Assembly: GCF_020382885.2 (NCBI RefSeq)
Contig: NC_058512.1
Span: forward strand, 10,566,802 to 10,630,801
Direction: 5' to 3'
Origin: Scatophagus argus
Lineage: Eukaryota; Chordata; Actinopteri; Scatophagidae
DNA: 64,000 bases
The notes beneath the pieces are model-generated. The model was not told the DNA's origin. It saw nothing but the letters and a program-made list of their open reading frames with translations, and ran no database searches. Shown here piece after piece: positions 4,507-63,900 of the stretch (the first letter of the stretch is position 1; each line of letters starts with the position of its first letter). Both the position numbers and the translations under genes were made by a program.

Positions 4507-7500
4507 CTGCTGAGTAATAAATTCATGTACTTATTTCTATGATATGCATTATTCCTACAGGGCTACTGTGCTTTGTCCAATTATGAGCATATATTTAGGA
4601 AATGATATTTTATATTTTTTATTTTATTACCTTACGCCAACACAAAATAATTATTATTCCATATATACCAACGATGCTAAATGGAGAGCTTAGAGTCATT
4701 TAGGCATATAATAATTTGTCTACAATGGTGTAATTTTAACATCAATATATCATCGTGCTTTCTTTTTATCGTGATTTCTAATATAACAACACTATATCAC
4801 TAAAATCATTAAATTAAGGCAGACTAATATCGAAACCATAAAGCATCCTTGTTGTCCCCTAAGTAAAACTTTCAGTTCAAAATTTGCATTTGGCAGCAAT
4901 TCTGATTTATCTTTTAGCAAAACGGAAAATGACCCATAATTGTCAGGCGTAGAAAAAACAAAAACAAAAACAAGTCCCCAAGCTCTAAAAATGACTGATG
5001 AAGTGATTTAAATCAGTGTGGAGGTTGACAAACACAAAGTCATTTCGGAGCCCATTTTCAAAGTATTTTACATGACAATTAAATTGGTCTAATTATTTAT
5101 GGTGACAGATCATGGAGGCTGTCAAAGCAGTTGGAGGTTTAGATAGTCTGAGCAAAATCATCTTATGCGCTCTGTTCATTTGGTTAAAATGAGTTGCTTT
5201 GTGATTATGTTTATAATGTGACCATTATTGCGCTCAGTGAACTGTTTATAAAAGTATTCATAGCTTTGACTGTAAAAAATCGCGATTCCATCTGGATTAC
5301 TAAAAACACGTAGGAACGACATTTTACACAAAAAAGAGAGGACTAATTATTTTTTAGCACTACAGTTGAATAAGTTTTTTTTAAAGAATTAATGTAAGAG
5401 TATACATTTTCAACATTTATAGTTTAATATTTGCTGGACAAAATGTTTTTATAAGGTGTTTAAAAAGATTTTAAAAAAGTATTATAGGCCTACAGTTTAA
5501 GAAAACATAATAGGCCTGGACTTCACACACACACACTCACAAAATCAAGTGTTCAGTCTTAATTTAATCTCGAAAATGAACATTTTTTAGAGTCAAAATA
5601 TTTAATGTGTCTCAAATTAAATATCTAAATCAAGTAACTGCTACAGTATTTTTGTCCCAACAATATTTCCCATCGCGTTGTCTGTACTGCAGACTGAGAT
5701 CAAAGCAGACTCAGATAACGGACTAATGATCTTCGCACTTCCTGACAAACACACCCCATTTGCGCGCTGCTTTTGTTTTTTGGTTGGAAGCACGCGAGCG
5801 CACGCGACAAGACAGGACGTGCGGACAGTGAGAACACCAAAACATCCCCGGTGCGTCCGCGCTCTCCCAAACACCGCCTGGTGCTTCACTTCTGCCTAAA
5901 AGCGCACGGTGCAGATAACATCGCCCACATTTACTAAGTGGTACTGTGTGCAGTGGGCTCTGCATTTGATAGCTTCCTACATTTATTAGACATATTACAA
6001 GATAGGATACATCTTACTGTATGTTGACTACGTTTATTCCGTATGATAGCTACAGATAGTTGTGGCTGATATTTCTCCCGTCTTATTTTTTGTTTTTTTT
6101 CCTCGGCCTGGTGTTTCTTTATTCCCACTGAGTGTAAATGCAACAGGGAGGACGCCTCAAGTTCAATCCAGGCCTTCGTCTTTAGTCCAGTACAAAAAAC
6201 GTTACAGATCTGTCCACACCCAAACCGGATTAGGGTCAACATGGCACCTTCCTTCTCTCACCTATCCTGGTCGTGTGCAGACAGGCTATTTGTTATCCGA
6301 CTATGGTAATACTAATGTAAAAAAAAAAAACAAAAACAAAAACCTAAACAAATAAAGAGGAGCAAAATAATTTCTGATCAGACCATCAACCTGTTTTAAT
6401 CGAAGGTTAACGTAAACTTGTCGGCCTCTAACCTTCAGCAAGTATCTGTCCAGGATCTCCTGACCGCAGCTGGCGCACATGTTCTTCCCGGTGGACGGCA
6501 CCGAGCTGGTGGTGGAGGTCGGCGAGCACACGGAGGGGGTGGACGGAGTGCTGGGCGACGAGCGAGTGTCCTCCCGCTCCATGTTGGACCGCTGGGATTC
6601 TCCGTCCGAGTGAGACTGCAAGAGGGCATCAGCACAGCTCAGTAACACACAGCATTACTCCTCGCCTCCACAGTGCCTGTTTGCACATGTCGCCATTTCC
6701 ATGCTGTAGTATATAATGCGCCAACATATTCACACATAGAAAACATAAATGCCTTATTTTTACGAATCCTAGCTACGTTTCCGCATGCACGGTGTGCGCG
6801 CGGGGCCGAGCGGTCACCTACTGCGCGCAGCAGGCGCACCGAAAGATCCAAACATTTTCAAAGCATAAAATGGGCAGTAAAGCTCTCACCATCGGCGTGT
6901 GTTTAGAGTCCACACTGCAGCGCGAGGCTCCCGGTGTGCTCTGATGCTCGGTTGAGATCACCTACAAGACAACGTTCAGTAAACGGCAAGTCTTCATCAC
7001 TTTTCCTGCCTCATCCTCAGCTGTGAAATCCTCGGGGGACATTTGCAGACAGCTCTTCAAGGCTACTCCTATTTAAAGAAGTCCTGACAATAAACCCCGG
7101 TTAAAACTGTTAAAAGGGCCCCCCGCAACAAAAGGCACATTTTAATGAAGCTATTTCAATTTGGATTGATTTTTCCCTTCCCCTTAACCCGTGCCTCTCA
7201 GAATAATAGTATTTTCTTCGCAATCCAGGACACGACAGTGGAGGGGGGGAAAAAAACTACCTGTAATTACAAATAGCTTGAAACGCTGGGGATAAGAGGG
7301 ACTCGGAGTGTCAATTTCAACTGTCAATCAGAAAAAGGCAACGGGTCACCCAAAGAATTGCAAATTTGATTTTTAATGGCTGTAATTAAAATCCAATTCT
7401 TCTCAGGCGAATTGGCAGCGCTCGAGAGGCTCGCGGACCGCAAATCACGCTATTCATAACAGAGAGGCGCGTGCCTCTTCACAGCGGCTGGCGCGTGCAG

Positions 7501-11270: not shown

Positions 11271-11454
11271 TCATCTCCTAAACTTGCGGAAGGGCCTGCT
11301 CTGGTTATTGTGGTGTGATTTAGAATAGGGCTCCCAGCGTTTCCTCTCTGGCGGCTTGTTGTAAACGTAGGCCGACGGGCCCGAGTAGTCATCATCTGGA
11401 TTCTCCTCCATCATCTGGAGCTTGGCCTCGATGGCGCGGATCTTAGCACTCGTA
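11271..11454 (-). CDS. rbm18: rbm18 coding exon 5 (C-terminus and stop)
   Basis: The acceptor is CCCTCTAG. The exon encodes [18 protein letters not shown], an acidic DDD, a Tyr/Pro-rich stretch and a basic tail, then TGA (stop complement at 11271-11273). Confidence 0.95.
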
Positions 11455-14400
11455 CTAGAGGGGAGGAGAAAAATAAAAGAGAGAGATGTTAGCAACAAGG
11501 CTGAGGGGAAAATACCAGTGTTGGTGATGAGGGTGACAGACGAAATGAGTGATGGGCAGATCTGGCTCTGGCTGAGGGGAAAAGAAGAGGAGCTATTAGC
11601 AATTCTTTCTCATGGCAGATGCAGGAAGAAAAAAAAAAGGGAGCACAAAGCAGAGATTACCAGTTCCTTGAAAAATGGAGGAAAACTTGCATTTAAATAG
11701 TGAAACTGTATTTGAAGGGGCAAGTGAGAGAAGTTTGCGGGAAAAATTACAGTGCAGGTGAGAAGAAGAGCAACTGAGGGAAGTGTGTAAGAAGTATCTA
11801 AGAAGCAGAAGAGAGACAGCCTAAAGGGGGCATCAGGGAAAAAGGGGGAGACAGAGTGTTTATACTCCCGCTCTTGTGCTGTGGAGAGAGAGAGAGTGAA
11901 GTTTACAGGATCGAAGCGTGGAGTCTTTCCTGAGAATGTCTCGGTAAGAGCTGATACTGTGAGCACAAGAGGCCTTTTACTGACATAACAGTACTTGCGC
12001 TGCGTGAATGTGAATGTATGCTGCAAAGTGAAGCAACAATAATGAAACATGTTAGACCTTCTGAAATCAAAGGGTTCGTCCTGTTGCACTCACACGAACT
12101 CAACTCGAACTGAGGTTTGCAGCGAAAGCAACAAGCTGTCCTATAATACTTTCAGGACCAAGCTTGACCTAAATGGAGACTTTGTTAAGGTAGCACTTGA
12201 AAAACTCCACAAGTGACCAGAGACTTTGTAAATACTAAGCCGGCTGAATCTGAAAACGTCATCTTTGTGCAACTATGAGGTGTCCACACCAGAATTTTCA
12301 GAGAATTTTTGAAAGAACAGCCGTTCATCTTGGAGAGCAGGCCAGACACAATAATCATTTATGACAGCAGAGACCTTTGAAAAATAAAAGCATGAGTTTG
12401 AGAGAGAAATTGAACACCTGCTTACTTTATCACCCCTGCCAACTAACTGTTACACAAATCATCAGACGAGGCAAATCCCAATTTCAACATCAGAAAAGCG
12501 TTGGAGGAGGTGTTCAAGAGTGTTTGACCTTTTGCTCAACAAGTCGGTTGAAGTATATGGACAAATCTACAACTCCTGTATTGTGTATTTTGTCTGAGCA
12601 GGCTTACAACACTATTTCACACAAGTTCAGTTTTCCTTGTCTGCACTAAACGGCAAGGCCAGTGTTTTCAGATTTTTCCAATCACAAACCTGCTTTCAAT
12701 GAGCTTAGTCTGTGAAAACTGGAAGGATGGACAAAATGGAGATGAAAATTTAGGTTTAGCTGACCTTACTGCAACACTCTTTACAGAAATGTTTGAATAA
12801 AAGCAATTAACTATGACGCTGTGTGTGCTTGGTACCAACCTGAGGTGGTTGGTAGCAATGGGTCCGTCCTCTTTCCCACCGCTGGATGACGGTTCAAGGC
12901 TCGGAGGCATCGTCTTGTCATTACGGAAACCTTCAAACCTCTGTAGATGAGACACGTGGCCGAAACAAAATGACCAACACAAATGGTGAAGGAAAAATGG
13001 ATGGAGAGACAAGAAGGAGAGAGACAAAAGAGTAAAATAACAGGTAGAAGCAAGAGAAGACCCTTGTACAGGGGCGAGACACATTCACAGAACACACAAG
13101 ATAAACAGAGGCACATGATCAGTGGGATAAAGTTCTGTCTTGTTCAGACAAAACTGAGCAACTCTTGTCCAAATGCGTATAAAGATGTAGAATATAGAGA
13201 TCACAGCTCACAGCCACTATCAAACTGCATGTAAAGCGTGTCCAGAGACCATTAAGACTGGAATTTCCTTTTCTGCTAAACACAAAAAATTAATTTAGCG
13301 CATCACTTTTCTCTAAACCAACGTCAAGACAAAACTATCAATGTATGTACTATCGGATGTACAATCACACCTGCATTTAGAGACATTTTAGTATCAAGTT
13401 TGAAGAGAAACACACAACAAGACAGAGAAAAGGAAAAAATCCCATCAACCAGACATTCAGAAACCGTCAGACCTCCTGATAAACACTGACAGCAGTTCTC
13501 TGGGGAGCCGACCCGAGCTTCCTCCCACAAGCATCAACATTATTAAACTGAAGTATTGATTTTGTTTGTGTCTGGTCAAACACACAGTAACCAAGCAGGA
13601 CTGCATGTCCAGCTCACAATCACACCCTAAGGCACGAGGGAGGATAAAGAGGGAGCAGCTGGACAGCAACAACCAACGTCTGCATTCATTCCTTTCAAAA
13701 CCATCTTCCAAACATTTCCACCAGCCCAACACAGAACTCTCCAAACCTGTGGAGAAAAAGAAAAGACAAAAACAAAATAACGGTCATACATACATGAATG
13801 CCAAGAGAAAACCCAGAGCTCAGTGCAGCAGCATCCTTTTTGTAGCAAAACGAGGCTTGGAAATCACTTGGTGCAACTGGCACTGAATCAAGTTACATAA
13901 ATACAAAAAAGCACACATACGTTCTTACATAGCGTCCCAAGAAATAAACAACATGTATAGCCAAGAATAGGTCTAAAACAATGACCATTCCACCAGCCAG
14001 GACCCTTCCCTTCCACCAATTCCTAAAGGAGCATAGCTGGAATGCATATGAATCTACACAGAGCCAATAAATTCATACCAAATCTGTGCACAATCCCAAA
14101 CTTAACTTATGGGAAGGTCAAGTATAAATGTTAAACTTCTACGTCCTAATTTCAACCATGATATGTGATTATACAGGAGACTACATTATCCATGTGTTTT
14201 TATTTTAGTGTTTAATGTGTTACAGGTCTGAAGGTTTAGGGTCAAATCATGGACCCACTTGCAGCATTTTTTGACTTTTGATTTATTGAGGGTTAGTGAC
14301 ATCGAGTGTTTCATATACAAAGAACATAACACGCTTAACACACAACTTGGCTAACTGTGTATTGATAAATACAGAATAATACAGTAATAAATTAAGACAA

Positions 14401-36352: not shown

Positions 36353-37657
36353 CGCACACTTGGAGCAGCAGGTGTTAGTCTGGCAGAGGAGGGAGACAAG
36401 AGTCAGACTGCTTTCCCCCTGCAATCAGTCTCGGCACACTCCGAGTCTCCATTTGCATTTCCAAAGAGAAGGCGCTCCTTGATTGGCCCTGGAATCAGTA
36501 ATTAGGCCGTATTGTTTGCGGTAAATAGACGCTGCACTTGGATTGTTTGCAAATAGTCCCCAATGCAAAAACAACGAAAAAAAAGCCAATTAAGGACAAA
36601 GAGGGAGAGTGAAATGGAAAGTATGATTTTCTGAGTGATTAACAAATGCAAAGTGAATACAAAGTTGTCAGGATGAGGAATGTTTCAACTCTGGTCTGAG
36701 ACCCTGGTAAGTGATTGTCGTTAGATGTTTGCAACAAGTCAGAACCAAAATGATTAGACTTGATGCCTACTAGCACTTAACATTCTCATTTGCTCAAGTG
36801 AGGACATTTTTTAAAACCATTTTATCTCTGCACAGTATTTGTATTTTCCGTACAGTACTGACCAGGAATCTAACTAACCCTTTCTTGCGAGGTCTATGCA
36901 TACAGTTAAGTGGTATGTAAAATTTCATATCCTGCTTCATATTATTTCCGTAGATGTCTGTTCACTTTCTCTAATTCTGAGAGCTTAATAACCCTTTAAT
37001 AAACATTTTCTTACTGTACATACCCCCAAAGAGATCAGTGGAGCTAAATTAGTATCGTCTTCTTATCATCTTCAAACTGCATACAAAGACAAGACAAATG
37101 ATTTGCTGTGAGTGGATCGATGTCTCCCCGGGATCTTTACCTTCTCAGTTCTGTTTTTTCCTCTTGTCTTACTCTCTCGTCTTCTCTCTTTCCCCTCATC
37201 TCCTCCCTCCCCCACAGAGTCACACGGGAGCACCGAGAGAACCTCGCCAAGGTGGCCAAACAGTTCAGCAACAAGGCGAAAGACTCGCTGAGGAGAGTGC
37301 GATCTAACGCCATCGCACAGGTCAAAAAGGCAAAGGAGGGACACTCGGAGGACACCATACGGCTTGTAGAAAAACAGGTAGGAGATGGGGGAGAAAAGGG
37401 ACAACAGTTCTATCACACCCAGAAGCCAAAATGTTCATTGATCTTCTTCATAAATGATAGATCAGAGTGAGGAATGGAAGTTTCAAGGAAACCAGCGCTA
37501 AAGTGAGAAATTAATCATCAGTCGTCGTGTGTATTCAGTATATTTGATTTTTATCCATCTTTCCCCTTTGTCTTCGCAGATTCAGCAGTTATCAGACAGC
37601 ATTACAGAGGACATCGAAAAACAGCTTGCAGCCAAGACCAAGGAGCTGTTAGGCTGA
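27177..37657 (+). CDS. mrrf: Mitochondrial ribosome recycling factor, complete, 257 residues
   Basis: MRRF binds the mitochondrial ribosome after termination and, with the GTPase GFM2, splits it into subunits. Six coding exons are 27177-27348, 27481-27633, 31402-31520, 35620-35711, 37218-37377 and 37580-37657; all borders are GT-AG and phases match (1, 1, 0, 2, 0), giving 257 residues, close to the human 262. Residues 1-57 are Arg-rich and almost free of acidic residues, as in a mitochondrial targeting peptide. The RRF fold follows: VNINSALVEDIICLDEV, NIRTSP-like SIRTSPG, QISMKSPQLIMINM, the loop VPIPKVTREHRENL, and the long-helix segment SNKAKDSLRRVRSNAI. It ends KTKELLG, the usual C-terminus. 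The first exon is noncoding (ends at 23807). Confidence 0.96.
27481..27633 (+). CDS. mrrf: mrrf coding exon 2
   Basis: This exon encodes AKAKGQSAKVNINSALVE through NLSISTSP-type residues (SIRTSP), the first conserved helix of the RRF fold. The acceptor is TTCCAAG; phase 1 on both sides; donor CAG|GTATTC. Confidence 0.95.
27634..31401. other. mrrf intron 3 (between coding exons 2 and 3)
   Basis: Noncoding. It contains a pyrimidine-rich stretch at about 28970-29340, a short TG tract at 29400-29420 and a degenerate dispersed repeat at about 29798-29980. A 99-codon frame on the minus strand at 30439-30738 has no recognisable protein character. Confidence 0.6.
29798..29980 (+). repeat. Degenerate copy of a common teleost dispersed repeat
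   Basis: The wording AAAGGAACAGTTCAGCATTTTTTGGGG and, later, CAACAGCCAGTTAGCTTATAGG with GAGACAGCTTGCCTTGCTCTGTCC recalls an abundant percomorph repeat. Boundaries are approximate. Confidence 0.6.
31402..31520 (+). CDS. mrrf: mrrf coding exon 3
   Basis: This exon encodes VLDHIVVTTQDGKFPLNQLG and SMKSPQLIMINMSSFPE, part of domain II of RRF. The acceptor is TGTTTAG, the donor GAG|GTAAGG, with phase 0 exit. Confidence 0.95.
31521..35619. other. mrrf intron 4
   Basis: Noncoding. It holds a dispersed repeat at about 33540-34080 that carries the longest open frame of the window outside genes (173 codons), several TG/CA tracts, and nothing else recognised. Confidence 0.6.
33540..34080 (+). repeat. 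Degenerate dispersed repeat with an incidental 173-codon open frame
   Basis: The core CCTAACCCTAACTGTGTCGTTTTTGTGCCTAAACTTAACCAAAC is wording I recognise from a high-copy repeat of many percomorph genomes. The open frame 33540-34061 spans it but shows no protein domain, so it is treated as incidental. Confidence 0.6.
35620..35711 (+). CDS. mrrf: mrrf coding exon 4
   Basis: This exon encodes ATGAAIRALRESGMNLNPDA and GTVIKVPIP, exiting in phase 2 at AA|GTGAGT. The motif SGMNLNP is characteristic of RRF proteins. Confidence 0.95.
36309..36354 (+). repeat. (TGCG)n(TG)n microsatellite
   Basis: Four GTGC units followed by a TG run of about 14 units in the mrrf intron before coding exon 5. Confidence 0.9.
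37218..37377 (+). CDS. mrrf: mrrf coding exon 5
   Basis: This exon encodes VTREHRENLAKVAKQFSNKA, DSLRRVRSNAIAQVKKAK and EDTIRLVEKQ, the return helices of the RRF three-helix bundle. The acceptor is CCCACAG; donor CAG|GTAGGA. Confidence 0.96.
37580..37657 (+). CDS. mrrf: mrrf coding exon 6 (C-terminus and stop)
   Basis: This exon encodes IQQLSDSITEDIEKQLAAKT and KELLG, then TGA at 37655-37657. The acceptor is CTTCGCAG. Confidence 0.95.
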   Translation: MQQLSDSITEDIEKQLAAKTKELLG

Positions 37658-45343: not shown

Positions 45344-45820
45344 TAACACACTAGAGCAGTCACTCAGATCTGTAGTGAACAGCCTTGCAGAAGGTGACGT
45401 ACTTATTTTGGAGTATTTAAAAACAATAGGTTTTATCTGATAACCCTTTTATGTTTCCAGTTCCTCTTTGTGAAATGCTGACTGATAAAAATTTTCCACT
45501 TGTCTTTCTCTGGACTCCTGAATTTCCACCGGTTCATGAGTAAACAGGGAAATTCATCAAAAGTGATACTACAGGTTTACAGACGTGCACACCTTACACA
45601 GCCTCACAGCCTCTGCAGTATCATCTGTGGTCATCAGGAGGAAGTTGTTAAATAATAAATAAATAGGCAAATAATTCCTGTTTGAAACGAGTAAAGGTGG
45701 CAGAACTTTGGCACAGTCTGTGTATATCACTATTTTCTTGTACATTAGGCTACTGTAAAGAATGAGATGTATACACAAATTCAGTAAAAGGAAGTAGAGT
45801 CTCCTGATTTCAGTCACCTC

Positions 45821-45945
45821 CATCTCCTGGAGGAAGTCGCTGTCTCTTGCTAACTGGTCCACTGTGTTCACCAGCCAGCTGAAGTTTGGTGTCAGGCAAC
45901 TGACATACAGCAAGTTTATCACTGTGGCTACAACCAAGGCCGACA
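45821..45945 (-). CDS. Possible alternative 3' exon beyond the NACHT exon
   Basis: The acceptor GCATTTAG precedes an open frame that would join in phase to a weak donor AAAAT|GTGAAG near the end of the NACHT exon (46918). It encodes SALVVATVINLLYVSCLTPN and FSWLVNTVDQLARDSDFLQE, part hydrophobic and part acidic. The frame may end at a GAG|GTGACT donor (about 45821) or continue to a stop at 45569. No domain recognised. Confidence 0.3.
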
Positions 45946-46635
45946 CTAAATGCTAACCTGGACACTGAAATGCTCCAGAGAGCAAAGAGGGATTGCATAA
46001 TTCACTTGAAGCAAACTTTCCCTATTACACATAATCACTTGACCGTATGACGATTTCATTCCAGTCAATATGTTCCAAAGCATATGTACAGAGAAGGTTT
46101 CCTTTCAATTTTCCAATCACATTTCATGCATCAAGACTTAGAGAGAGTAAGAGAAAACAACAGAAAGAGAAACAAGAAAACAACATGCAGATCATTGCTG
46201 AAAGCAGCACTTCTGATTTCACATGCAACAGAAGCTGCAGTGCAAAAACACACGCACTTCATGGAGCTCCTGACTAAACATGCCCGAAGGCTGCAATAAT
46301 CAGTACATCAGCAGAAGTGTGGTAGAAAGATGAGTCAAACATACAGGATAACAGGACAGCATGCTGAACGAATGAAAATCTGCATTACTCATACTCTTCA
46401 TGACATTTAAGTCATGTTACAGTTACAGCAGAAACAATAATAATAAAAAAGAGTTTATTTTTATCAAACATTACTGGAAGCAGAGCGCTCTCTTGACAGG
46501 AATACAGATAGTCAGTTCCCTTTTCACTAAGAGTGCACAGAAACTGTGCTTCGCTTGCATTCTATCAAATGGCCGTGAAAATGAACTTTCTTTTTCACAA
46601 AACAGAAACAGAAACAACTTCATTAAGTGCTCAGT

Positions 46636-46641
46636 TTTATT
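46636..46641 (-). terminator. Polyadenylation signal after the NACHT exon
   Basis: AATAAA on the minus strand about 255 bases beyond the TGA of the NACHT exon. Confidence 0.5.
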
Positions 46642-46894
46642 GAAAAAAGAGTTCAATGTGTTTCTCACCCTGTAAATGTACTAGAATTATTATATGTAAT
46701 ATTTCTCCTTGAAATGGCAAGCAGGGCTGTCAAGTAAAGAATACAAAAACAGTATATATTACATGTACTGAATTCACACATTTTGCAGCATATGTGGACT
46801 TCTACAAATTCTGACTTCACAGTCACTGTAAAACATTTCTATACATCATACAAATATTTGGTAAAACTGTAACAATTGCTAATGTCCCTATTTG

Positions 46895-47390
46895 TCACAA
46901 ACATTTGTGCCCTTCACATTTTGTGAGCTCCAGCACCAGTTCTGTTCCAACTTTGTCCTTGAGCATGGGACAGTGTCCCGGGCAGGCTGTGACCAGGACC
47001 CTGCATCCTCTTCTTTCACTTAGAAACCTCTGTAAGGACTCATCAAAAAATTGGTTCCCTTCTCTGTACCCGTCCAAGAGCAGCAGAACCTCACTGGACC
47101 TGGATAACATGGTCCTCAGCTCATCCTCTGTTGATATTTTTTCCTTAAGGGAAAGTTGGGTATTTATTTCCCCAAACAAGTCACCCTTCACTTTGCTGCA
47201 GTCTACATATAAGAGAAGTTGGATGATGCTGAGGTCGAGGAAACTAGAAAGGGCATGGTTGGGTCCTTCGATCCAAGAAGACACCAGGATGTAGGCTACC
47301 GTTGTCTTCCCGCTTCCTGGTGGTCCCTCAAGAAAAAGCGTCTCTCCAGCATTTGGGAGTAAAGCTTGGAGATTCACAGGGTGGCCCTGG
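46895..47390 (-). CDS. NACHT-type P-loop NTPase exon
   Basis: The acceptor is TTTTTGTCAG. The exon encodes GHPVNLQALLPNAGETLFLE, Walker A GPPGSGKTT, YVDCSKVKGDLFGEIN, Walker B-like EVLLLLDGYREG and the strand GCRVLVTACPGHC, then TGA. This covers the nucleotide-binding subdomain of a NACHT domain, which in NLR proteins powers oligomerisation. The usual D-G-x-D-E acidic box reads D-G-Y-R-E, and the strand normally ending T-S-R-P reads T-A-C-P. Nucleotide binding is therefore plausible, but hydrolysis may be impaired. The exon is far shorter than the single large NACHT exon typical of fish NLRs. Confidence 0.85.
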
Positions 47391-50300
47391 CTGACAAAAA
47401 CAGACAAACAAACAAACAAAAAGAATTGAGAATATAAACTACACAGATGCAAGACATTTCTATTCATATTAGAATTTACAACAATCAAGTTGGACAAAAT
47501 CCATATCTGTGTAATTGCTCACAGGAGCAGAATCAATATGCCCTAAATATTTAAAGTGAACTCAGCTTTGTTGAGCTCTGACGTTGGCTAATATCAAACT
47601 GTCTTGACAGGAGAGCTGGACTTCAAAATGGGCTAAAATGAACATGATTTCTACACGAGTTTGATCATATCGTTTCAGTAAAAAAGTACACAGTTGTCAT
47701 ACTTTTCGGATGGGCGGTTTGGTGGGGATCAAATAGAACAGGATGTAACAAAAAAAAAATTCTCAATGGTGTCTGGTTGTTGTTGTTACCGAAAATAACA
47801 CCATACAAGCATTGCCTGTGACTCACTTATTTTGCACCCTTTGAAGCAGCTCCTCCACACCGAAAGCATCTGAGTGATGTCTCGCATCCGCGCTGAAGAA
47901 GTCGGAATAACTGGTTTTCACAAGCGCCCCCAGATTTTCCTCTGCGCAGCACACAGACAGCAAAACAGACTCGATTATGATCATATCAATGTCATTTGAT
48001 GAAAAGAAATCAGAACAGAATGAGAAAAAAAATCCCTTAAAACGTTCTTTTTGTTTTGCACAGTCAGTTTACTGTAAGGCAGGTGATGAGTGCACTGGGT
48101 GATATTTTTAATTCATAACGAATGAATGATGCATGACCATTTTTAGCACTAAAACAATTAGTTGAGCAGCCAATTGACAGAAGAATTATTGGTATTTTTG
48201 GTCAATGATCAATAACTTCAGTGATTTTTAATTTTTCAGACAAGCTTTTATACTAATGTGTTGAATGAATGTGCTGAATATCTTTGGATTCTGGACTGCT
48301 GGTTGGCCAAAACAGGACAGTGCTGTTTCGTTTCTAACATTTTTTAGACCAAACTATTCATTAAAAAAATAACGGACAGACTAAACTCTAATGAAATGAA
48401 TCATTAGCTGCAGCCCTATTCGTTTTACACAAAAGCTGACAAACTGAAGTCATGTAAACAAAAAGTATAAGAGTCATTTACCGTCTTTAAACCCAGTCAT
48501 CTCTTCCTCATTTTCAATGTTTACTTGTAGGCCTGATGGAAAGGAGCAGAACTGTTAGAGCACAGAAAACATAACATTTGCATTTGCATAATGAATTTAT
48601 GTTATATTCATTAATAAGCAAGTAATGCAGCCATTACTACAATGATTTGATTCAAACTTGCAATGCACAATTCAAATACAACACATTCAAATTAATGGAA
48701 TATTTAACAAATGCACTTTCTGCCTTAAAGCTTCACAGTAAAGGGAAGCTTTGTACTTCTTGATTCAGAGGAATAAATGATGAGGCCACACTGAGATACT
48801 AATGGAAATTTAATGACTAGTTATTTATCAGTCAAGTGGTCTTCATAAAGCATTTCACACGCACAACTTTAACTGTAAGTCTTATTTTATTACTGTAGAC
48901 GTTATTTATATATGTGACCTGTAAGAAGTCATTTGAGTTTTAGCCCATGTTTGTTACAAATGCTTCTAGCAGCCATTCATTCATTCATTCTTCCAAATAA
49001 TTCAACAAACAGTCAGATTCAGTTTCAGTGAGAAAACTGCTGAACACTGCATAACTGATGCGGTGACAAAGAACCAACTTCATGAGAGAGAGGCAGCACG
49101 GTCAGTGGAGGTGAAGGAAAAAATTTATAATCGAAAATAGACAGAAACTGTGGGTGTCTTTCATTTACCGTAAGAATATTTTACAAGAACATCGTCAGCA
49201 GTTTGACTCAACGCAGCAGAGACCAAGTTGTTGCACAATTTTGTTTGTCCCCACAAAACGCTGCATTGCAACAAATATGGAATCTAAAGAGTCCCCAGAT
49301 GCCAGGTTGTAGCACATTTATTTTAAGGTGTGTAACAGTAACGGTTGTGTGTGTTAGCAGTGAATTGTGTAGCTCTGTTTGGACTCACAGTCAGTAGCGG
49401 AAACAGACCTATCCCGACCGTCAATCAAAGTTTTCATGGTAGTGGGAGTGGTGGACCCTGTGGAAAAAAATATCAATGTTAATTCAGTGTGTGTGTGGAT
49501 GTGTATTCCTGTAGTGGTTGGGGATAGAAAGCTGTTTACACAGTCACAGCCTTACTTATGGGGACAAAATCCCCACAAAGTAACTCATGAAATATTAGAG
49601 TGAAGGCTTGCTTTAAGGTCAGGCTGAGGTCAGGGTTTGGTTACAGTAAGGCCTCCAGGAAATTAATGTAGGTCAATGTAATGTCACATGAAATACTATA
49701 CAGTAAAATGAAATCAGAGAGAGATTTTGTTTTAAAAGCACCAGCTTGATGGTGATATAGATATACAGGGTGCTGTTAGAACACCATAGCTTTTAGTACT
49801 ACATTGAACAAAAGTTGTTAGCACAGGTGCATGTGATGGACAGTGTGCAAGGTAAGTCTTCATGGTGTGCAAGAACCTTTTTGAAACTGTGACCAGCTTA
49901 AAAATACTATCTGTGAGTTTCAGGATCAGTAACTGAAGTAGGATTTCTTATCATGTTCACACATTCATATCAGGAGAAACGTGTTAGAGTGTAAGTCCAC
50001 TACTGAAATGATTAAAATGATGGTGTCATTTGTTTGAGGGGTTATACAAACAACTAACCTGTTATACTGAAAAACCACCCATGCATTTACAAATAACCTC
50101 AAATTCCCCTGTCACGCAGACCAAGACCACACTGGGTGTTTCCAGCGGCAGCGGCCGTGAAACATGTCAGGTCCAAAAAGCAAAGTCATGCTTACATGAA
50201 AACATGCTGAGAGTAGAGTCACATGCTGACAAAATTCCCTCAAGGCCAAATTGCAGACTTTGACGGCGGCAAATCAAGTGTTGCAAAGCAAATATCTCAC

Positions 50301-53300
50301 AAAGACTTCCTCTTTTCAGTGCCAGGATGACTTGACTTGCTGTGCGTGCGTGTATCAGCTTTGTTTTTAAGACAGTTCCTAACTGTGCACACTTCAGTCC
50401 ATTTGATTAAACAAAAAAATATAGAACCACTGTCGTGTCTGTCAAGGAAAAGATACAACTTGGATGCTGACGAATGCAGGACTGAAGACAAAATTTTACT
50501 TCCGGTTGGACAATAAAGTTCAGTTAGTTCTATTACACAGTTCTGTTCCAAGTCAGTGCAGTTTAGGTCATTTGTTTCACATGAGGTTATGTCTGTTAAA
50601 CATAAACCACTATAAATGCTTACAATAAGGAAATATAAACGAACTAAAGAATAAATTGTTCCACCTGCAAACAACAGAATTATCTCCTGCAAATAATCCA
50701 GTGGAAAATCCAGTGTTGCAGTGCTGCACCCTTCACACTCTGACTTTAACTTTTACTGCATTCCAGCTGCAGAGTGAATGCTCCAGGGCCAAACCAATCA
50801 TCTTACATTTTTTTATTATCTGTTGCACATGCATCACTGTGTACTGTGCACTATGACTTCATGTATGAGCGCAAGAACAATCCATTTGTCACTCTGTCAC
50901 GTTAATATTTCACCATAGCTGCGTGTAAAATTATTATGCATTGTTATTTTGCATCATTTCATATGCCAGCATGAAACACAAATTTCCATTGGAAATTTTG
51001 TCTCCACCTGCATTCTGCGTATTGCTGTCTTTGTTATAAGCTACACTTCCTGAATCTGTTGGCCGATTGTTATGTGGCATATACAAAAAGAGCTGTGTGA
51101 GTGACTGGTCACCTTTTCGACGACGATACACGAGCACGACGATGATAATGACAACCATTATCACTCCTGTGCTCACTAAGAGAATGGCAGTGTCATTTCT
51201 TTCATGAGGAATAGCCATTTCATCTGTGAAAAAAGAGAGAAAGATTAGTGGCACAATGTGACACACAATCCAGTATCAGATTCATGACCATGGTTCATTA
51301 TTCTGGCCACTTTGGAAATAACCAAATAAACCAAAGACAAGTCGTTGCAAACTTCCCCTTACTGGTCAAGAAAAATGTGGCTATTAAAATGACTCATGTT
51401 CGTTTAATAGTTTTTTATAGCTGTGCAAGCAGATGGCCTTCTTTTACTTTTCTTCTTTTTGTCATTGCATTTACTGTTATAGGCTATTTCTTTCTTTATT
51501 TATCAATAAAATAACCTGAAATAGTCTATATTTTAAGTGCAAAGCTGTAACCCCCAAGAATACTTTCATATTTTAGCTAATCAAGTCCAGACATACTGCA
51601 TCCAAAAGGTCAAATAAACCTCTGAATACGCATAAAGAGAAACATACACAGCCCACATACACACGCAAAAGAACAGAAAACGAACATTTCCACAAATGCC
51701 AAACCTCTTGAAATAGCATTGCTACACAAAGCTGTATCATTCAAAGTTCAAACACAAACACCTACTCTACAGCTTCGCTGCAGAGGTGCGACATCTTAGA
51801 AATACAGTGGGGAAAGTTCATACACATGCCCTCTTTGTGAGTGATTCCATTTGATGTGGTTTGATGGTTAACATCTCTAATGGCAAGAATATATAAACAT
51901 AAAAGGAAACACTGGTAGTGATTGTGGTCAGGTGTTGACTGTATTTCCTGTTTTTCTAAATCAGAATATGGAGAACTTCACCTACACCTTCACCGAGTGC
52001 CAGCTGCTTCTTTTGTTGACAGATTATAAGTTCAAGTTAGGACAATTCTCTCTGTTTTTTTTCATTCACACATCCGCTTTCTTTCCGGTTCATACACTCA
52101 TCCTTTAGCCTGTTTGTTGGCAGGAGAGGAGCTGAAAGGCAGTGAGGTGGGTGGACTTGAAGACATTACAGTAACATGCTCAGCAGCTAAAACCCCTGTC
52201 TGCTTGCACCCTCTGCACAGTCACATATGTGAAACAGAGTCCGGAGAGAAGACCTGAAAGGAAATTTACCTGGAATATGAAATGTTTCAGAGTAGCCATC
52301 ACTCGTGAAGTTACACGTGTAGTTGTTTTTCTCCGCCGATGGGACACGTATCTCGCTGGTGACTTTAAACAGCTGGTCTGGCGTGGATACAACTGTGGTA
52401 TTGGGACTGAATCTCTGCAGCCGCCCATCCTGCCACACAACAGAAGACTCTGGATAACCCTCAGACTGGCAGGTTAGCAGCACCTCATCCCCGTCTGCAG
52501 CCTTCTGAATGCGTTTCGTCACTGCTTTATAAGGTGCTAAGGGAGAATCAGAGAGAGAGAATATATATTAACTAAACTGTGTCGAGGAAAGTACTGTTAT
52601 ATCTTGAGGAAAGCCAAAAGCATTCTTTACCAAATTGTGCAATATTAGTTTCACTTTCACATTAAGCCCCTGTGGTCATCTCATAAAAAAATTCCAAAAT
52701 GTTATGCTGACCCAGACTCTTACCTGTAACAGACAACGTAATCATTTTATAATCAGCTCCTTTTTTGGTCTGCACCAAACACTGGTAGTTTCCAGAGTCA
52801 TTGATTTTGAGTCTGGATATCTGAAAAGTGACATAAGAAGACAAAACAGTGCTCAAATGTCCTCATTGTGTGTTATGCCTTCATACACTACCAAAATCCT
52901 AACTTCCTCTGTTGTGTAATCCTTATTTGAACTCTCATCAGTCTCTTTAATAAGAGTACAGTATTTTGTTGACAAAGATAGTGTGTAGCTAAATAGCTTT
53001 CTGTCCTGTGTTGGAAGTCGTTCTTTAGTATCTGAAGTAGTACTGTGATGCAAAGCATGGAGTCCAGAACAGAGTCCAGACTCCCACATCAGTGATTCCA
53101 GATAGGATCCATAAGTTGACTACACCAGGATGAGGAGAATTTACAGAAAATGACCCATAACCTGCCGATAAACACTCCCTGGCTTTACTGACCTGCAGCT
53201 TCGCCCAGCCGTTCTTCAGCTCATCAGCGAGAAGCCTCACTCGGCCCCGATAGTCCGGATGCTGGGACACCAAGTGCTCCACGTTGTTATCCATCTGGTG

Positions 53301-53707
53301 CACTTCCCGCTCCGAGGAGGAGGCAATCCAGTGCCACGTCACCTTCAGGTGATCCTGAGGATTCAACAGTTCAGGCTTAAACCTGCAGCCCATCACAACA
53401 TCTCCTCCAAACTCTGATTTGTGCATGGTTTGGTCTGCCTCAACAGTGAACAAGACTGCAAGGAAACAACACAAAACAATATCAATATTAATCCCAGTTT
53501 GCTCCACAGTCATGAAATATTTAGTGAGGAAGCAACAGCAAATTAGGCTCCTGAGATGCTTTTACTTGTGTGTCAAAAAGTCAGAAGTTTTTATGTAGGT
53601 GCATTGCTTGTCCTGTTGTTCATAGATATCTCCACTGCTGTGTGCTACACACCTGAGAGAGTTGGCTGAAACATGACTTGCAAAAGTACAACAAGGGCCC
53701 AGTCCAT
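46895..53707 (-). CDS. Candidate PD-L1-NACHT fusion form of the cd274 locus (about 484 or 507 residues)
   Basis: This form shares the first four coding exons and uses an internal donor AAAAG|GTGACC at 51113 in the membrane exon, phase 1. Exons 49389-49457 (phase 1/1), 48482-48532 (1/1), 47827-47941 (1/2) and 46895-47390 (2, stop) then join in frame. The product would be signal peptide, IgV, IgC, membrane segment and a cytosolic part. The cytosolic part has a linker, Walker A GPPGSGKTT (365-373 if all exons are used), a Walker B-like VLLLLDGYREG (444-454), and a sensor-like strand VLVTACPG (474-481). It stops after LELTKCEGHKCL, before any helical, winged-helix or LRR part of an NLR. The frames are intact and the donor is canonical, but no transcript evidence exists here. 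An independent gene starting at the ATG in 49389-49457 is the rival model. Confidence 0.5.
47827..47941 (-). CDS. Candidate pre-NACHT exon
   Basis: The acceptor is GCTGCGCAG and the donor ATAA|GTGAGT (phase 1 in, phase 2 out). It encodes ENLGALVKTSYSDFFSADAR and HHSDAFGVEELLQRVQN, a helical segment of the kind that precedes NACHT P-loops. It contains no ATG. Confidence 0.7.
48135..48425 (-). repeat. Degenerate copy of the same teleost repeat as at 18262, opposite orientation
   Basis: On the minus strand it begins AGGGCTGCAGCTAATGATTC and ends with AATTGGCTGCTCAACTAATTG. It lies in an intron of the candidate long form. Confidence 0.65.
48482..48532 (-). CDS. Candidate linker exon of the long form
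   Basis: This 51-base symmetric exon (phase 1 on both sides) has the acceptor TTCCATCAG and the donor GACG|GTAAAT. It encodes LQVNIENEEEMTGFKD, an acidic linker. Confidence 0.5.
49389..49457 (-). CDS. Candidate cytoplasmic linker exon of the long form
   Basis: This is a 69-base symmetric exon (phase 1 on both sides) between a TTTTTTCCACAG acceptor and a GTGAGT donor. It encodes STTPTTMKTLIDGRDRSVSA and TD. The internal ATG sits in a good start context (ACCATGA) and is the most upstream candidate start if the NACHT exons form a separate gene. No domain recognised. Confidence 0.45.
50812..50817 (-). terminator. cd274: Polyadenylation signal of the short cd274 form
   Basis: AATAAA on the minus strand, about 117 bases beyond the short-form stop. 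Confidence 0.5.
50934..51223 (-). CDS. cd274: cd274 coding exon 5 (stalk, membrane segment, short tail)
   Basis: The acceptor is TTTCACAG at 51224. The exon encodes DEMAIPHERNDTAILLVSTG, the hydrophobic run IMVVIIIVVLVY, then RRRKG. Read through, it continues DQSLTQLFLYMPHNNRPT to a TAA at 50934-50936. An internal donor after 51113 would end it at RRRK and remove the short tail. Confidence 0.85.
50934..53707 (-). CDS. cd274: PD-L1-like immune checkpoint ligand, short-tail form (323 residues)
   Basis: PD-L1 is a type I membrane ligand of the inhibitory receptor PD-1 on T cells. Minus-strand coding exons are 53653-53707, 53193-53455, 52724-52820, 52270-52536 and 50934-51223, with GT-AG borders and matching phases. 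The protein has a signal peptide (MDWALVVLLQVMF), an IgV domain with Cys42 and Cys120, an IgC domain with Cys161 and Cys213, and a membrane segment at about 240-260 followed by YRRRKG. PD-L1-specific matches are RGRVRLLADEL, the G-strand motif GADYKMI (mammalian GADYKRI), LTCQSEGYPE and LFKVTSEIRV. Sequons include NTT, NYT, NFT and NDT. This form reads through the membrane exon into a tail of about 58 residues ending MMQNNNA. The divergent neighbour plgrkt matches human 9p24 order. PDCD1LG2 is the alternative; no second paralogue is seen. Confidence 0.87.
52270..52536 (-). CDS. cd274: cd274 coding exon 4 (IgC)
   Basis: This exon encodes APYKAVTKRIQKAADGDEVL, the IgC cysteines in LLTCQ and NYTCNF, and SETFHIP before the stalk. 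It is symmetric, phase 1 on both sides. The opening APYKAV and the EGYPE motif parallel the mammalian PD-L1 IgC exon. Confidence 0.92.
52724..52820 (-). CDS. cd274: cd274 coding exon 3 (IgV, strands F and G)
   Basis: This exon encodes ISRLKINDSGNYQCLVQTKK and GADYKMITLSVT, with the D-x-G-x-Y-x-C motif of IgV and the GADYK motif of PD-L1. The acceptor is CTTTTCAG and the donor CAG|GTAAGA in phase 1. Confidence 0.9.
53193..53455 (-). CDS. cd274: cd274 coding exon 2 (IgV, strands A to E)
   Basis: This exon encodes VLFTVEADQTMHKSEFGGDV, the first IgV cysteine (GCRF), VTWHW and YRGRVRLLADELKNGWAKLQ. The acceptor is CTTGCAG and the donor CAG|GTCAGT in phase 0. In mammals one exon encodes the whole IgV domain; here it stops before the F strand. 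Confidence 0.88.
53653..53707 (-). CDS. cd274: cd274 coding exon 1 (signal peptide)
   Basis: The ATG at 53707 follows a TCATCAG acceptor by six bases. The exon encodes MDWALVVLLQVMFQPTLS, a hydrophobic signal-peptide core, and exits in phase 1 at CAG|GTGTGT. The upstream in-frame ATG at 53513 belongs to intron sequence. Confidence 0.8.
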
Positions 53708-54038
53708 TGAGACCTGATGAAAAAGACAAGAGGGAGTTTTACTGATGCTGAAATCTTTTGAACATGTTACTGGTAATATGAGTCACTTTGCTGAGGAAGG
53801 TCAAATGTGATTTCCAGATCAACACAATGTCTGATCAAGATCACTTCTTTAGTAATTTGATAAATGGCCCCAGGAATAACACACAACAGCACATGACAAA
53901 ACTAACAAACAAAAAACATTAGTTATCCAAACCAAAGCATGACTCAGCTCTGCTACAAGGAAAATAATTTCCCCAACCTTTCAATCCTCATAAAGAAACA
54001 AAAATAAAACAAGCATTTTTAACTTTGAAGCTCTTTCA

Positions 54039-54039
54039 C

Positions 54040-54070
<31 letters not shown>

Positions 54071-54077
54071 ACACACA
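54039..54077 (+). repeat. (CA)n microsatellite
   Basis: About 19 CA units with one GA interruption in cd274 intron 1. Confidence 0.95.
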
Positions 54078-54676
54078 TCCTGTGTCAGTACATACAAAGA
54101 GCTAATTTTACATGGCAATGCTGGCAAGTCAGGCCTCTCCAGAAATGATTTGTGAGACACATGAATTACTAAACATGAACATAACTCAGTAATCATTTTA
54201 TAACTGAACTCCCCAAGCCACAGAAACTTTTATTTATGCACTTTATCACAGAAATCTCAAAGTCTGTTAAGTCTGAAGCTTTTTACTGAGTAACTGATAA
54301 GCAGTTTAGTCATTTTGTGTTCAACAAAACCTTCAAGCCTGTGAATGTGAATGAGCCGTCATTTCTGACTAAGCACAGACAGTTTGGCTCTCAAGTGAGC
54401 ATAATATAAATAAACTAAGATCAGCCAGTTGTTAAGTACCAGGTTACCATATATACATGTTTTAAAAAGTAAACATGCTTTCCATAATTAAGATAATTGT
54501 GCTAGTCCCCATAGCTGGATTCAAGTGCTCAAAAAAAATATTCAAAAAACAAATGATATTGATAAAAAATTACAAAGAGACATTCCCATGAATACATTTC
54601 CTCCAGCGGCACTAAAGCAATAGTTTAAAACAGCCTGTGTAACCCTATTGTTTATCAGTCGACAATGTGTTCTTAC

Positions 54677-54773
54677 CTGCAGAGTTAAGTTAAGGTCTTA
54701 GATTCTCTATAAGCGTTTCCTCGTTCCTTCAACTCAACATCTGGAACCGCTCTGCGTCGCTAGTGCTATTTAT
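54677..54773 (-). promoter_or_regulatory. cd274: cd274 noncoding first exon and TATA-like promoter
   Basis: A minus-strand donor CTCTGCAG|GTAAGA ends a probable 5' UTR exon at 54677. Upstream, ATAAATAG at 54766-54773 (minus) sits where a TATA box would be for a start near 54740. Confidence 0.5.
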
Positions 54774-54879
54774 CAAGTCCATCTCCGGTGCACGCCCACA
54801 ATCAGACCGCATTTTTTTTTTTTTTTAATCCCAACGCTTTACGACCAGGCTAAAAAAAACTAATAACGGAAATTGGCGT

Positions 54880-55320
54880 TTTCACTCCTCTCCAACCTAA
54901 AACCTAAAAGGAGTTTTACATTCCGAAATTATGTCACCAAGTAGAGGGTGCCATCGCAGAGGCCGTAAATGTCGTCACATGCTGCGAATTTTACGGTCAT
55001 TGACGAGGGGTAAAATTCGTTCGCACGTTTACGCCAGTACGAAGTGCGCTTTCGTTTGTCGTCGCTCAGCGCTGTGCGTGGGACAAGTGGACGCATTCAA
55101 GGGAACTTCTCACAGTATAATTACATTTAAAATAACGTCTCTTTTGACGGACACGGAAGTACCGGAGTCTACGGGATGTATCCCATCCTTACTGTAAGGA
55201 AATACTCCGCGGACAATTTGCCTGTGCCGTAAATCCCACCAAACAGCTGATAACAAACAGGGTAACACACTTTGTTGACCGACGTTTGTTTGTCTCCTGC
55301 ACATGCAGTGATTAAGAAAG
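54880..55320. promoter_or_regulatory. CpG island between cd274 and plgrkt
   Basis: CpG dinucleotides are dense here (about 20 in 200 bases around 54960-55170), in contrast to flanking A+T-rich sequence. An ETS-type CGGAAGT at 55154-55160 is followed by ACCGGAG. It may be the promoter of plgrkt, or shared with cd274 about 150-400 bases away. No exon could be fixed in it. Confidence 0.45.
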
Positions 55321-57905: not shown

Positions 57906-57986
57906 ATGGGGTTTCTGTTGTCAAAATCCATGGATGCAAATTTTAAAAAGCAGCAAGAATTCATGCTCCACAATTCACGGCTCCAG
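57906..57986 (+). CDS. plgrkt: plgrkt coding exon 1
   Basis: The ATG at 57906 lies 16 bases after a TCAACAG acceptor (exon start 57890). Twenty-seven residues, starting MGF as in all PLGRKT proteins (a potential N-myristoylation glycine), phase 0 exit at CAG|GTGAGT. Confidence 0.93.
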
Positions 57987-60900: not shown

Positions 60901-63900
60901 TGGTTTTTCTTAACACATCCAAGAACTGTGGTTGTGACCAGGCATGGAGTGATTTGGATGTTAACAGCATTTGTGTTCACATCTGTGCAGCTGGAAGTAG
61001 ATTTAGTGGCTGGCTGTGTGTGTGTGTGTGTGTGTATGTATGTGGTTTTCGATGAGCACTGTAAGTGTGCTGAAGTAGCAGATGGAGCAGTAGATGAGGA
61101 CTGGCTGTTTGACGCTTTGATACAAGGAGAGCAGTAGGTGGGATGCAACAGGGAGGGCGTTGGGTTTCCAGATGGTGGAGAGCTTCTGCTGGCAGAGTTC
61201 ATGATTGGTGTTTATGATTGGAGTGTTCGTCAAAGCTGGGTTAAACATCCATGAGGATTCCCTCCTATTTGGGACTCGGCTCCGTGTCAGCTGCGTTGGC
61301 GCTGATGATGCCGAGGTAGCGGAGGATGGAGGTCAAATTCTGTAGTAGGCATTTGTCTGAGCCGCCTGAAGAGAAAGAGCTGGCAGCTGACTCTAATTCT
61401 TACTTATCTGTTTCTAGATTAATTTGTGAATTATATTCTTATATAAAATAATATACTATATAAAATAATTATCACTGACATGTATCAGGTAGTTTTTAGG
61501 TTTCCACTTTGTAAAAATTAAATGTCCAGTGTATGAGGTCTACTTCCTGTTTTGTAACCCAGATGAGAGAAGGGATGACTTCACTTGAAGTGACGTCTCT
61601 TTCGTCATGTCATCAGAAACCATTATTACACATTTCTCACTCCTGAGGATCATAACTGTTCTGTGAGTGGATGTGTAATTTCCCCTTTCATTCCTCAGAA
61701 AAGGGTCAGGGTTATCAAAACACAATCAACTTCTTCCTCTCATTAGCAACACGTGCCGCATTTAGTTTGCGTTTCATCTTTGTCAAATTTTAATGAGATT
61801 GTTGACTAATTTAGCTCAGCAGACCAGTTCCTGTGCTTGCCATTACTATGAAATGCTGTTCCAATTTGGCCAGTGTTCAGTATGAAATGCTAACCCCTGA
61901 GGCTTCAAAGAGTTTTTAACTTCCTTCTTCCTGGAGTGCTGAATAACTATAGTTACAGTAACCAATGACAAAGGGGACCAAAATGTTTCTAGAAAATTCT
62001 CACAGTTTCGTGCCTGTGTTCCCAGTATAAGATGGGGTCATTTTTTTGTTTCTTCATGTTTTCACCTTAAATGTGAAGGGATTTTTAAAGTTGTGAGGCA
62101 ACATTTGCATTAAAGACATTATATAACACTTATTTGGGAATTTGGTATGGAAAACCTTTTATAGCACATTAAAGATCAATAGATTAGAATAATTCTCCAG
62201 TATTATATCTAATGTATTTTTTCCAACTGCAAGATAAAACTCAACAGTTGAGACACTGATATGAAAACAGCATAAGATGAATCAGAGAAGTTTAAACATG
62301 GAAGTGAAGGAAGGCTGGATGCACATGAGCGGCAGCTACAAGATCTGAGAATACAGCATACAAAGGGCTTACAAATATGACAAAAGAGATAAACCATTCC
62401 TCATCAATTTGTTCATTCTAGAAATATGAATAATATTTGATAATATTGGAAAAGTCTCACTCCAGTAATATAACTGGTGGCCACTTTTGTGTCAACAAAT
62501 AACTGGAAACAGTTTCTCAATGTGTCCTGTGATGACCCGAGGGAGGGTTGGGTTATCATTAGTGGGCCATAATGCTTTATTTTTATTTACCCTGCTTGTC
62601 AAGTTAAACATGTTGAGCTTTGGGAGTTGGTCAAGTTACTGCATGTATGTGTTTTGCACAGTTTTCTTGCCTTTCTTTTGTCTGTTTAAATTTTAACACT
62701 TTACAGGAAATGTAGGTAATGTGCACTGTAGTACTGTAGGACGTGCATGGTGTAGTAATTGTTTGTATTACTGTATTGTTAGTATTTGCAGTGCTGAGTT
62801 AGTTGCTTGCAGCTGTTAGAGTATGTTAATGTAGAGGTGCTTTGCAAGTCACTTGCTGGCTGTTGTTCTATGACTCAGTCATACTATTTGATAAATGCTT
62901 TCATACATCGACTTATATTTTCATTTATTCCAGGTTCAGTGACATGTAATGTTCAGCCATTAACTCAGTTATACTGAATTGTTCAATTACATTCTGACAG
63001 AAAGTCAGAACGTTTCTATTCCACATCACGTCATCAACTCGCTTGAATGGCGCTTTGGTCAGTGAGTTAGTGTCTCTTTCCTGCTAAGTGGAAATGAAAA
63101 CTCATCTCTGACACTTTTATAATAAATAATAATAAAGGCTTTTTAAATGTCACTCAATTGTTATGCAGGAAGCATGCGTCTCTGTGTATGTAGATATGAG
63201 CGTCAGACAGGAAACTGCAGACAAAAGATTCATCTGACTGAGGTTCATCAGCATGGACACAGTGTTTCCGAGACTGGACGAGCTGTCTGTAGTTCCTTTG
63301 GCCCATTAATTGTCCCTTTGACTGACTGACTGCTTGTCTCACTGCTTTCATATCCAGCTGTTTTTCTCTTATTGTCACTTTAATTACATAATATTGTGAT
63401 CGCCAGACTAATGCATTGTATGTGTTTGACATGCCCTTGAAATTTACTCAGTTACAAATTGGAGGTTTGAGAACACAGATGATATTCATTTTGATGATAA
63501 TCAATACACAACATAAACATGTTATCCCTTAAACTCTTGTGACCAAGCTATGTATTAGTGATTATGAGTGGAACGTTTTACAGTTGGAAACTAAACCTGT
63601 CAGTGCTCTCTGGTGGACAAACTATGTAAGGAAGATACTGTTTCTAAATGACCTCCAACATATTTGGCATTTGTGGTACTGAAAATGTTTTGTTGCCTAT
63701 TATCCAACACAATATCACTGATGTCTCAGTCTTGCTCTAATATTCCATTTATTTGGTAATTTATTTGTTTATATACCTGACAGTGTTTTCTCAGCATTTA
63801 GTATTTCATGTTTGCTCTGGGCAGTGTCTCTATTTGGCTATAAAGGTCTGTTGTGCCTCATGATGTCCTCTGTGTCCTTTCTCCTGTGTGCGTAGATGGA

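Follow-up and report, generated by a model that had tools for sequence, protein, structure and literature searches.

Does the stretch of Scatophagus argus DNA in which PD-L1-like immunoglobulin exons are followed by exons for a NACHT P-loop domain encode one membrane protein, and what might such a domain do beneath a checkpoint ligand? An initial annotation of the window (the whole stretch of DNA analysed, 64,000 nucleotides) had placed these exons on one strand and in one frame, and that arrangement was borne out: all intron phases were as it named them, and GT-AG ends were observed at 8 of the 8 introns between the coding exons. The four exon types assigned to the ectodomain and membrane region are present, but IgV spans two exons, so that there are nine coding exons in all. 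These lie on the minus strand from 53713 to 46895, a gene span of 6.8 kb, and join in one frame to give 507 residues in the order signal peptide, IgV, IgC, membrane helix, RRRK, linker, NACHT P-loop domain and stop. The spliced product is identical, letter for letter, to a Scatophagus argus database protein (P0001). We regard it as nearly certain that the locus is a teleost PD-L1 (CD274) gene and that a stand-alone NACHT core of the NLR type makes up the cytoplasmic tail of its product.

Exons 1 through 8, all on the minus strand, were placed by splice signals and frame, and exon 1 also by the identity to P0001. Exon 1 (53653..53713) holds the start codon (ATG 53707) and a signal peptide recognised by eye, MDWALVVLLQVMFQPTLS. 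Exons 2 (53193..53455) and 3 (52724..52820) encode the two parts of IgV, the second with the ADYK motif and residue D129 considered below; they are separated by a phase-0 intron (53192-52821), and the Pfam V-set match covers residues 35-130. Exon 4 (52270..52536) encodes IgC, also matched by Pfam, and exon 5 (51113..51223) encodes a stalk, a membrane helix assigned by eye and RRRK. The donor at 51113 that follows RRRK had been described as an internal one; it is in phase 1 as stated, and the next three introns are in phases 1, 1 and 2, but it is a normal exon end, and the longer frame beyond it is intron read-through, open for 59 residues (50937-51113). An AATAAA at 50817 also lies within intron 5, and because of these two features a short-tailed isoform is possible. 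Exons 6 (49389..49457) and 7 (48482..48532) form a cytoplasmic linker of ~40 residues, and exon 8 (47827..47941) a segment of ~38 residues that runs into NACHT (EENLGALVKTSYSDFF...), with L308 conserved in 98% and Y316 in 97% of 128 rows. Exon 9 (46895..47390, ~165 residues) encodes the NACHT nucleotide-binding domain, including the Walker A or P-loop motif GPPGSGKTT (residues 365-373, 47300..47326) and the Walker B motif LLLLDGYREG (residues 445-454, 47057..47086), and it closes with the TGA at 46895-46897, the first stop codon of the fused frame.

A consensus match to the polyadenylation signal AATAAA is found 3' of this stop (46636..46641, minus). Many related fish proteins have an end of the QTQTVKY type, from which the last ~10 residues of this protein (TKCEGHKCL; 46895-46930, minus) differ. 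Antisense to the NACHT exon, on the plus strand, there is a 159-residue open frame (46815-47294) that probably arose by chance. Scans of the 64,000-nucleotide window with Rfam (gathering thresholds), ARAGORN and a tandem-repeat search (score 100) gave no match, and repeats of at least 25 bases within 45500-55000 amounted to one pair of 80% identity.

The ectodomain exhibits the PD-L1 architecture of signal peptide, IgV, IgC and one membrane helix (the first and last assigned by eye), and the Pfam models V-set, I-set and Ig_3 were all above cut-off. When compared with PDB chains, the Ig part matched PD-L1 chain 35tl in one stretch over residues 19-264 of 264, including the membrane helix (8.1e-34). 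CD276 chains scored somewhat better, both with the single sequence (3.4e-36 versus 8.1e-34) and with the profile (2.1e-56 versus 2.7e-53); the score of the top CD276 chains is raised by their matching in two stretches. Upstream of the gene is a divergent neighbour on the plus strand, the first coding exon of which (57906..57986) is PLGRKT-like by pattern match and by a Pfam DUF2368 score that lies below the cut-off of 25 (20.1 bits, E 5.2e-4), and the next exon of which, read from the sequence and likewise PLGRKT-like, starts at 63896; we take this neighbour to be PLGRKT. In human, PLGRKT adjoins PD-L1 (9p24). Elsewhere in the window, a plus-strand exon at 37102-37467 encodes a ribosome recycling factor (Pfam RRF, 3.9e-11), likely MRRF, and minus-strand fragments at 11274-11609 and 6304-6654, which had no Pfam hit, resemble RBM18 and an LHX gene. 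Residues F21 (131 of 137 rows with a residue) and D129 (140 of 140) match by position human F19 and D122, which are PD-1 contact residues according to the main text of Kondo et al. 2025 (PMC12151841). On the PLGRKT synteny and these conserved contact residues, we set aside identity with CD276 despite its higher PDB score.

We pooled the proteins from three database searches into a set of 144 distinct sequences, P0001 included. The tail matched 111 proteins at E<=1e-3 (again including P0001), a second search from an electric eel query gave 18, and a profile search, which scored the 8000 candidates sharing most words, gave 137, of which the best 120 were used. According to a tally of the precomputed Pfam column, PF05729 (NACHT) is present in 128 of the 144 proteins, Ig and NACHT together in 125 and NACHT alone in three (P0054, P0102 and P0107), counts that are not frequencies among fish because retrieval used the fused protein. 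Six of the 16 proteins lacking PF05729 were rescanned with Pfam: P0022, P0098, P0132 and P0139 contain NACHT below the cut-off (4.6e-5 to 4.2e-4), and P0141 and P0144 gave no NACHT match. The initial annotation had proposed that PD-L1 ectodomain and membrane helix are joined to NACHT in one product and that a database search with this product be made; the identity to P0001 upheld the first point, and the search found the same order in orthologues across teleosts.

Fused proteins were observed among tarpons, characins, catfish, electric fish, cyprinoids, Polymixia, a squirrelfish and many percomorphs; the placement of five of the species was looked up. Tarpon P0136 is 45% identical to the Scatophagus protein over residues 1-496, and since it is fused, the fusion would, with vertical descent, be as old as the split between Elopomorpha and other teleosts. 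The set of 144 also contains fugu B7-H1/DC (P0105) and flounder B7-H1/DC (P0098, in which NACHT falls below the cut-off). The database names of the orthologues include PD-L1, PD-L1-like, PD-L2, uncharacterized, butyrophilin, CD276 and IGSF11; P0001 itself is named CAR homolog, and the UniRef entry P0054 bears the name NACHT domain-containing protein through automatic annotation. In viral_contigs, 19 pattern matches were found, none of which encodes a relative.

Sixteen proteins came from the source 'lgn' only. Thirteen of them (P0012, P0019, P0029, P0030, P0032, P0056, P0062, P0066, P0074, P0100, P0106, P0119 and P0131) have both Ig and NACHT in 431-510 codons, with longest contigs of 1435-2428 bases; because the Scatophagus gene spans 6.8 kb and these contigs 1.4-2.4 kb, they are probably assembled transcripts. 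The other three are P0107, with NACHT alone, and P0141 (17 member sequences) and P0142, with Ig alone. A separate NACHT transcript, which the initial annotation had named as evidence against the fusion, is thus contradicted in other species by short contigs with the whole open reading frame.

With regard to the tail itself, Pfam NACHT (PF05729) matched the full product with 37.2 bits (3.4e-9) and the last exon alone with 38.5 bits (1.3e-9), relative to a curated cut-off of 26.7. With the identity to P0001, this NACHT score and the 111 proteins matching the tail, the arrangement is far above chance. All 9 of the 9 sequences in a small tail alignment matched NACHT at E<=0.01, and the tail has both Walker A and Walker B, the motifs by which a NACHT or STAND NTPase is judged; an NCBIfam scan of three proteins gave no match. 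The best solved relative of the tail in PDB is NLRC4 (5aj2, 4.7e-5), the Walker B of which reads LLDGYNE, and the pattern LLDGYxE is common to NLRC4 and the fish PD-L1 tail. With a nine-sequence profile, the lowest E-values were those of midasin P-loops, a score summed over several weak repeats none of which passes singly; among matches in which one stretch passes by itself, NLRC4 ranked first (6.4e-8), and NAIP is another such match (4.0e-5).

The protein ends a median of 56 residues past Walker B D449 (interquartile range 54-56, 138 rows), and 63 or fewer residues past it in 137 of the 138 rows; from this near-constant end point it follows that the truncation itself is conserved. The ~56 residues that follow Walker B leave no space for HD1, a winged helix or LRR, and the Pfam scan of the product detected no HD1, winged-helix, CARD, PYD or LRR match. 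On these grounds, membership of the NLR family proper was ruled out. At the position assigned by eye to a putative sensor-1 arginine, 99 of 128 rows have Cys and 10 have Arg.

We have used an alignment of the 144 proteins to compare conservation along the sequence, with counts taken over rows having a residue at the position in question. Walker A K371 is present in 136 of 139 rows, and in Walker B and beyond it D449, Y451 and D459 are each present in 138 of 138 and E453 in 132 of 138; the best conserved columns of the last exon include D449, Y451, D459, G370 and K371. Mean distances, calculated for the 130 full-length rows of the 144 (14 dropped) and with NACHT taken as residues 343-495 to exclude the variable last residues, were 0.424 for NACHT, 0.445 for Ig, 0.538 for exon 8, 0.590 for the membrane exon and 0.657 for the linker of exons 6-7, the least conserved region. 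The NACHT part thus diverges no faster than the Ig part. Ig and NACHT distances were correlated (r 0.908; as high in 0 of 999 permutations), which indicates co-inheritance and not interaction. Separate trees for 39 chosen rows of the 144 were similar in length (Ig 13.33, NACHT 13.04), and both recovered otophysans, cyprinoids and catfish; Elopomorpha, used for rooting, was non-monophyletic in both, and percomorph branching differed between them.

The domain is not universal. The two Oryzias proteins (P0143 and P0144) stop after the linker, with the NACHT part absent, and the P0144 linker aligns with Scatophagus exon 6 and the first part of exon 7. Unless these gene models are too short, the domain appears to have been lost secondarily. 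P0141, from a short contig, also ends ahead of NACHT as judged by eye, and the main text of Kondo et al. (PMC12151841) states that the long tail domain was not found in salmonids. These absences in Oryzias, salmonids and P0141 suggest that the domain is dispensable in some fish or isoforms. Also, the Walker A lysine or the Ser/Thr that follows it is changed in 8 of 128 rows (P0071, P0088, P0098, P0101, P0109, P0120, P0125 and P0128), and P0110 terminates ahead of Walker B; some of these cases may be gene-model errors.

The tail as such has been reported before. A conserved long C-terminal PD-L1 tail, with one exon coding for it in 9 of the 13 ray-finned fish and a range that reaches bichir, is described in the main text of Kondo et al. 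2025 (PMC12151841), who number that exon 8, credit the extension to Hu et al. 2023, term its function speculative and propose a membrane interaction from hydrophobic patches. In that main text, NACHT, NLR, ATPase and P-loop occur 0 times. Three species of its PD-1 figure, tarpon, weatherfish and mummichog, are represented among our NACHT matches by P0137, P0135 and P0084, and from the main text we infer that the published tail is the same as the Scatophagus NACHT tail. A literature search of PMC by titles and abstract openings found, among the matches listed, no paper linking fish PD-L1 to NACHT; in the searchable text of PMC8875540 both occur, in separate contexts, and in that of PMC12562908 'NACHT' is an author's name. 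According to the first of these, a review, PD-L1 is induced in grouper brain during persistent nodavirus infection, which shows expression and regulation of PD-L1 in fish and nothing further. The tail is therefore already known and its NACHT identity is not discussed in the literature text searched, so that the earlier statement that such a protein is undescribed fails for the long tail and stands, within searchable text, for its naming as NACHT.

The function of the tail can be considered from its motifs and its relatives. For the tail, the initial annotation had proposed an intracellular nucleotide switch and reverse signalling, both of which are hypothetical. NLRC4 is a cytosolic protein with CARD, HD1, winged helix, HD2 and LRR; a STAND switch is made by the second and third of these, both of which the usual locked ADP switch needs. 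Because the fish tail has no room for these parts and no effector domain, it is unlikely to be a self-contained ATP/ADP switch. Retention of the P-loop and Walker B nevertheless argues for a bound nucleotide, most likely ATP or ADP. NLRC4 and NAIP assemble through the nucleotide-binding region, and HD1 and the winged helix also make contacts in known NLR assemblies. We favor the possibility that the ectodomain is presented in the way usual for PD-L1 and that the tail would provide, beneath the membrane, a surface for nucleotide-dependent docking or clustering through which it touches either itself or NACHT proteins of the cytosol. An array of membrane-anchored cores beneath clustered PD-L1 would be a natural surface for docking or oligomerisation, and such contacts could give PD-L1 an effect inside its own cell. 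Taken alone, this mechanism, which is argued from sequence, is tentative and falls somewhat short of an even chance; to identity and a nucleotide-dependent interaction module together we would assign a probability of roughly one half.

It is rather unlikely, in our view, that the NACHT fold is instead a passive tail for membrane association, trafficking or degradation, with no nucleotide-dependent action. The hydrophobic patches from which the main text of PMC12151841 suggests membrane interaction are consistent with such a role, as are the altered P-loops of some rows and the loss in most rows of the putative sensor-1 arginine, yet the five P-loop and Walker B residues listed above are among the most conserved of the last exon, and a passive scaffold would need none of them. 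Also unlikely is a role as decoy or brake for cytosolic NLRs, in which the tail would hetero-oligomerise with them, be unable to recruit caspases and so dampen inflammasome-type signalling in PD-L1-positive cells. A nucleotide-binding domain with neither effector nor LRR, the best single-stretch solved matches of which are NLRC4 and then NAIP, would suit this role; however, HD1 and the winged helix, which also make contacts in known NLR assemblies, have no space in the protein. That two adjacent genes have been joined by annotation or read-through is extremely improbable and was rejected: the AATAAA at 50817 with the open intron 5 could give a short-tail product, and P0054, P0102 and P0107 have the NACHT part alone, but the domain order shared by 125 of 144 proteins, the near-constant end point, the 13 short contigs, probably transcripts, with both parts and the Ig-NACHT distance correlation (r 0.91) all point to one gene.

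If the docking or clustering mechanism is correct, an adaptive checkpoint ligand would be linked physically and directly to the NLR family. In mammals the PD-L1 tail is short, and signalling into the cell that bears it is debated; the NACHT tail may let fish PD-L1 act on its own cell besides restraining T cells. We consider it quite doubtful that ray-finned fish PD-L1 works in two directions, with engagement outside or nucleotide state inside driving self-assembly of the tail or its assembly with NLRs of the cytosol, which would wire the adaptive checkpoint to inflammasome-type sensing. Recognition of a conserved NTPase-type domain turns the published tail into a precise hypothesis centred on the P-loop lysine, and medaka, which keeps PD-L1 and appears to have lost the NACHT domain, provides a natural comparison.

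In summary, a tail that is probably the one of Kondo et al., unnamed as such in their main text (PMC12151841), is here identified as a NACHT nucleotide-binding domain. The Scatophagus protein resembles mammalian PD-L1 (CD274) in its IgV-IgC-membrane helix order, in its equivalents of F19 and D122 and in its PLGRKT neighbour, and differs from it in the tail: chain 35tl has 290 residues in total, whereas the fish protein continues for ~243 residues past RRRK, NACHT included. Its Ig part scores slightly nearer to B7-H3 (CD276) than to PD-L1 in PDB, although the PLGRKT neighbour and the conserved PD-1 contact F and D point to PD-L1. Finally, the NACHT domain of NLRC4, with that of NAIP behind it, is the best solved relative of the tail and has in common with it the P-loop and the Walker B pattern; unlike NLRC4, fish PD-L1 has the nucleotide-binding core only, and carries it behind a membrane helix.
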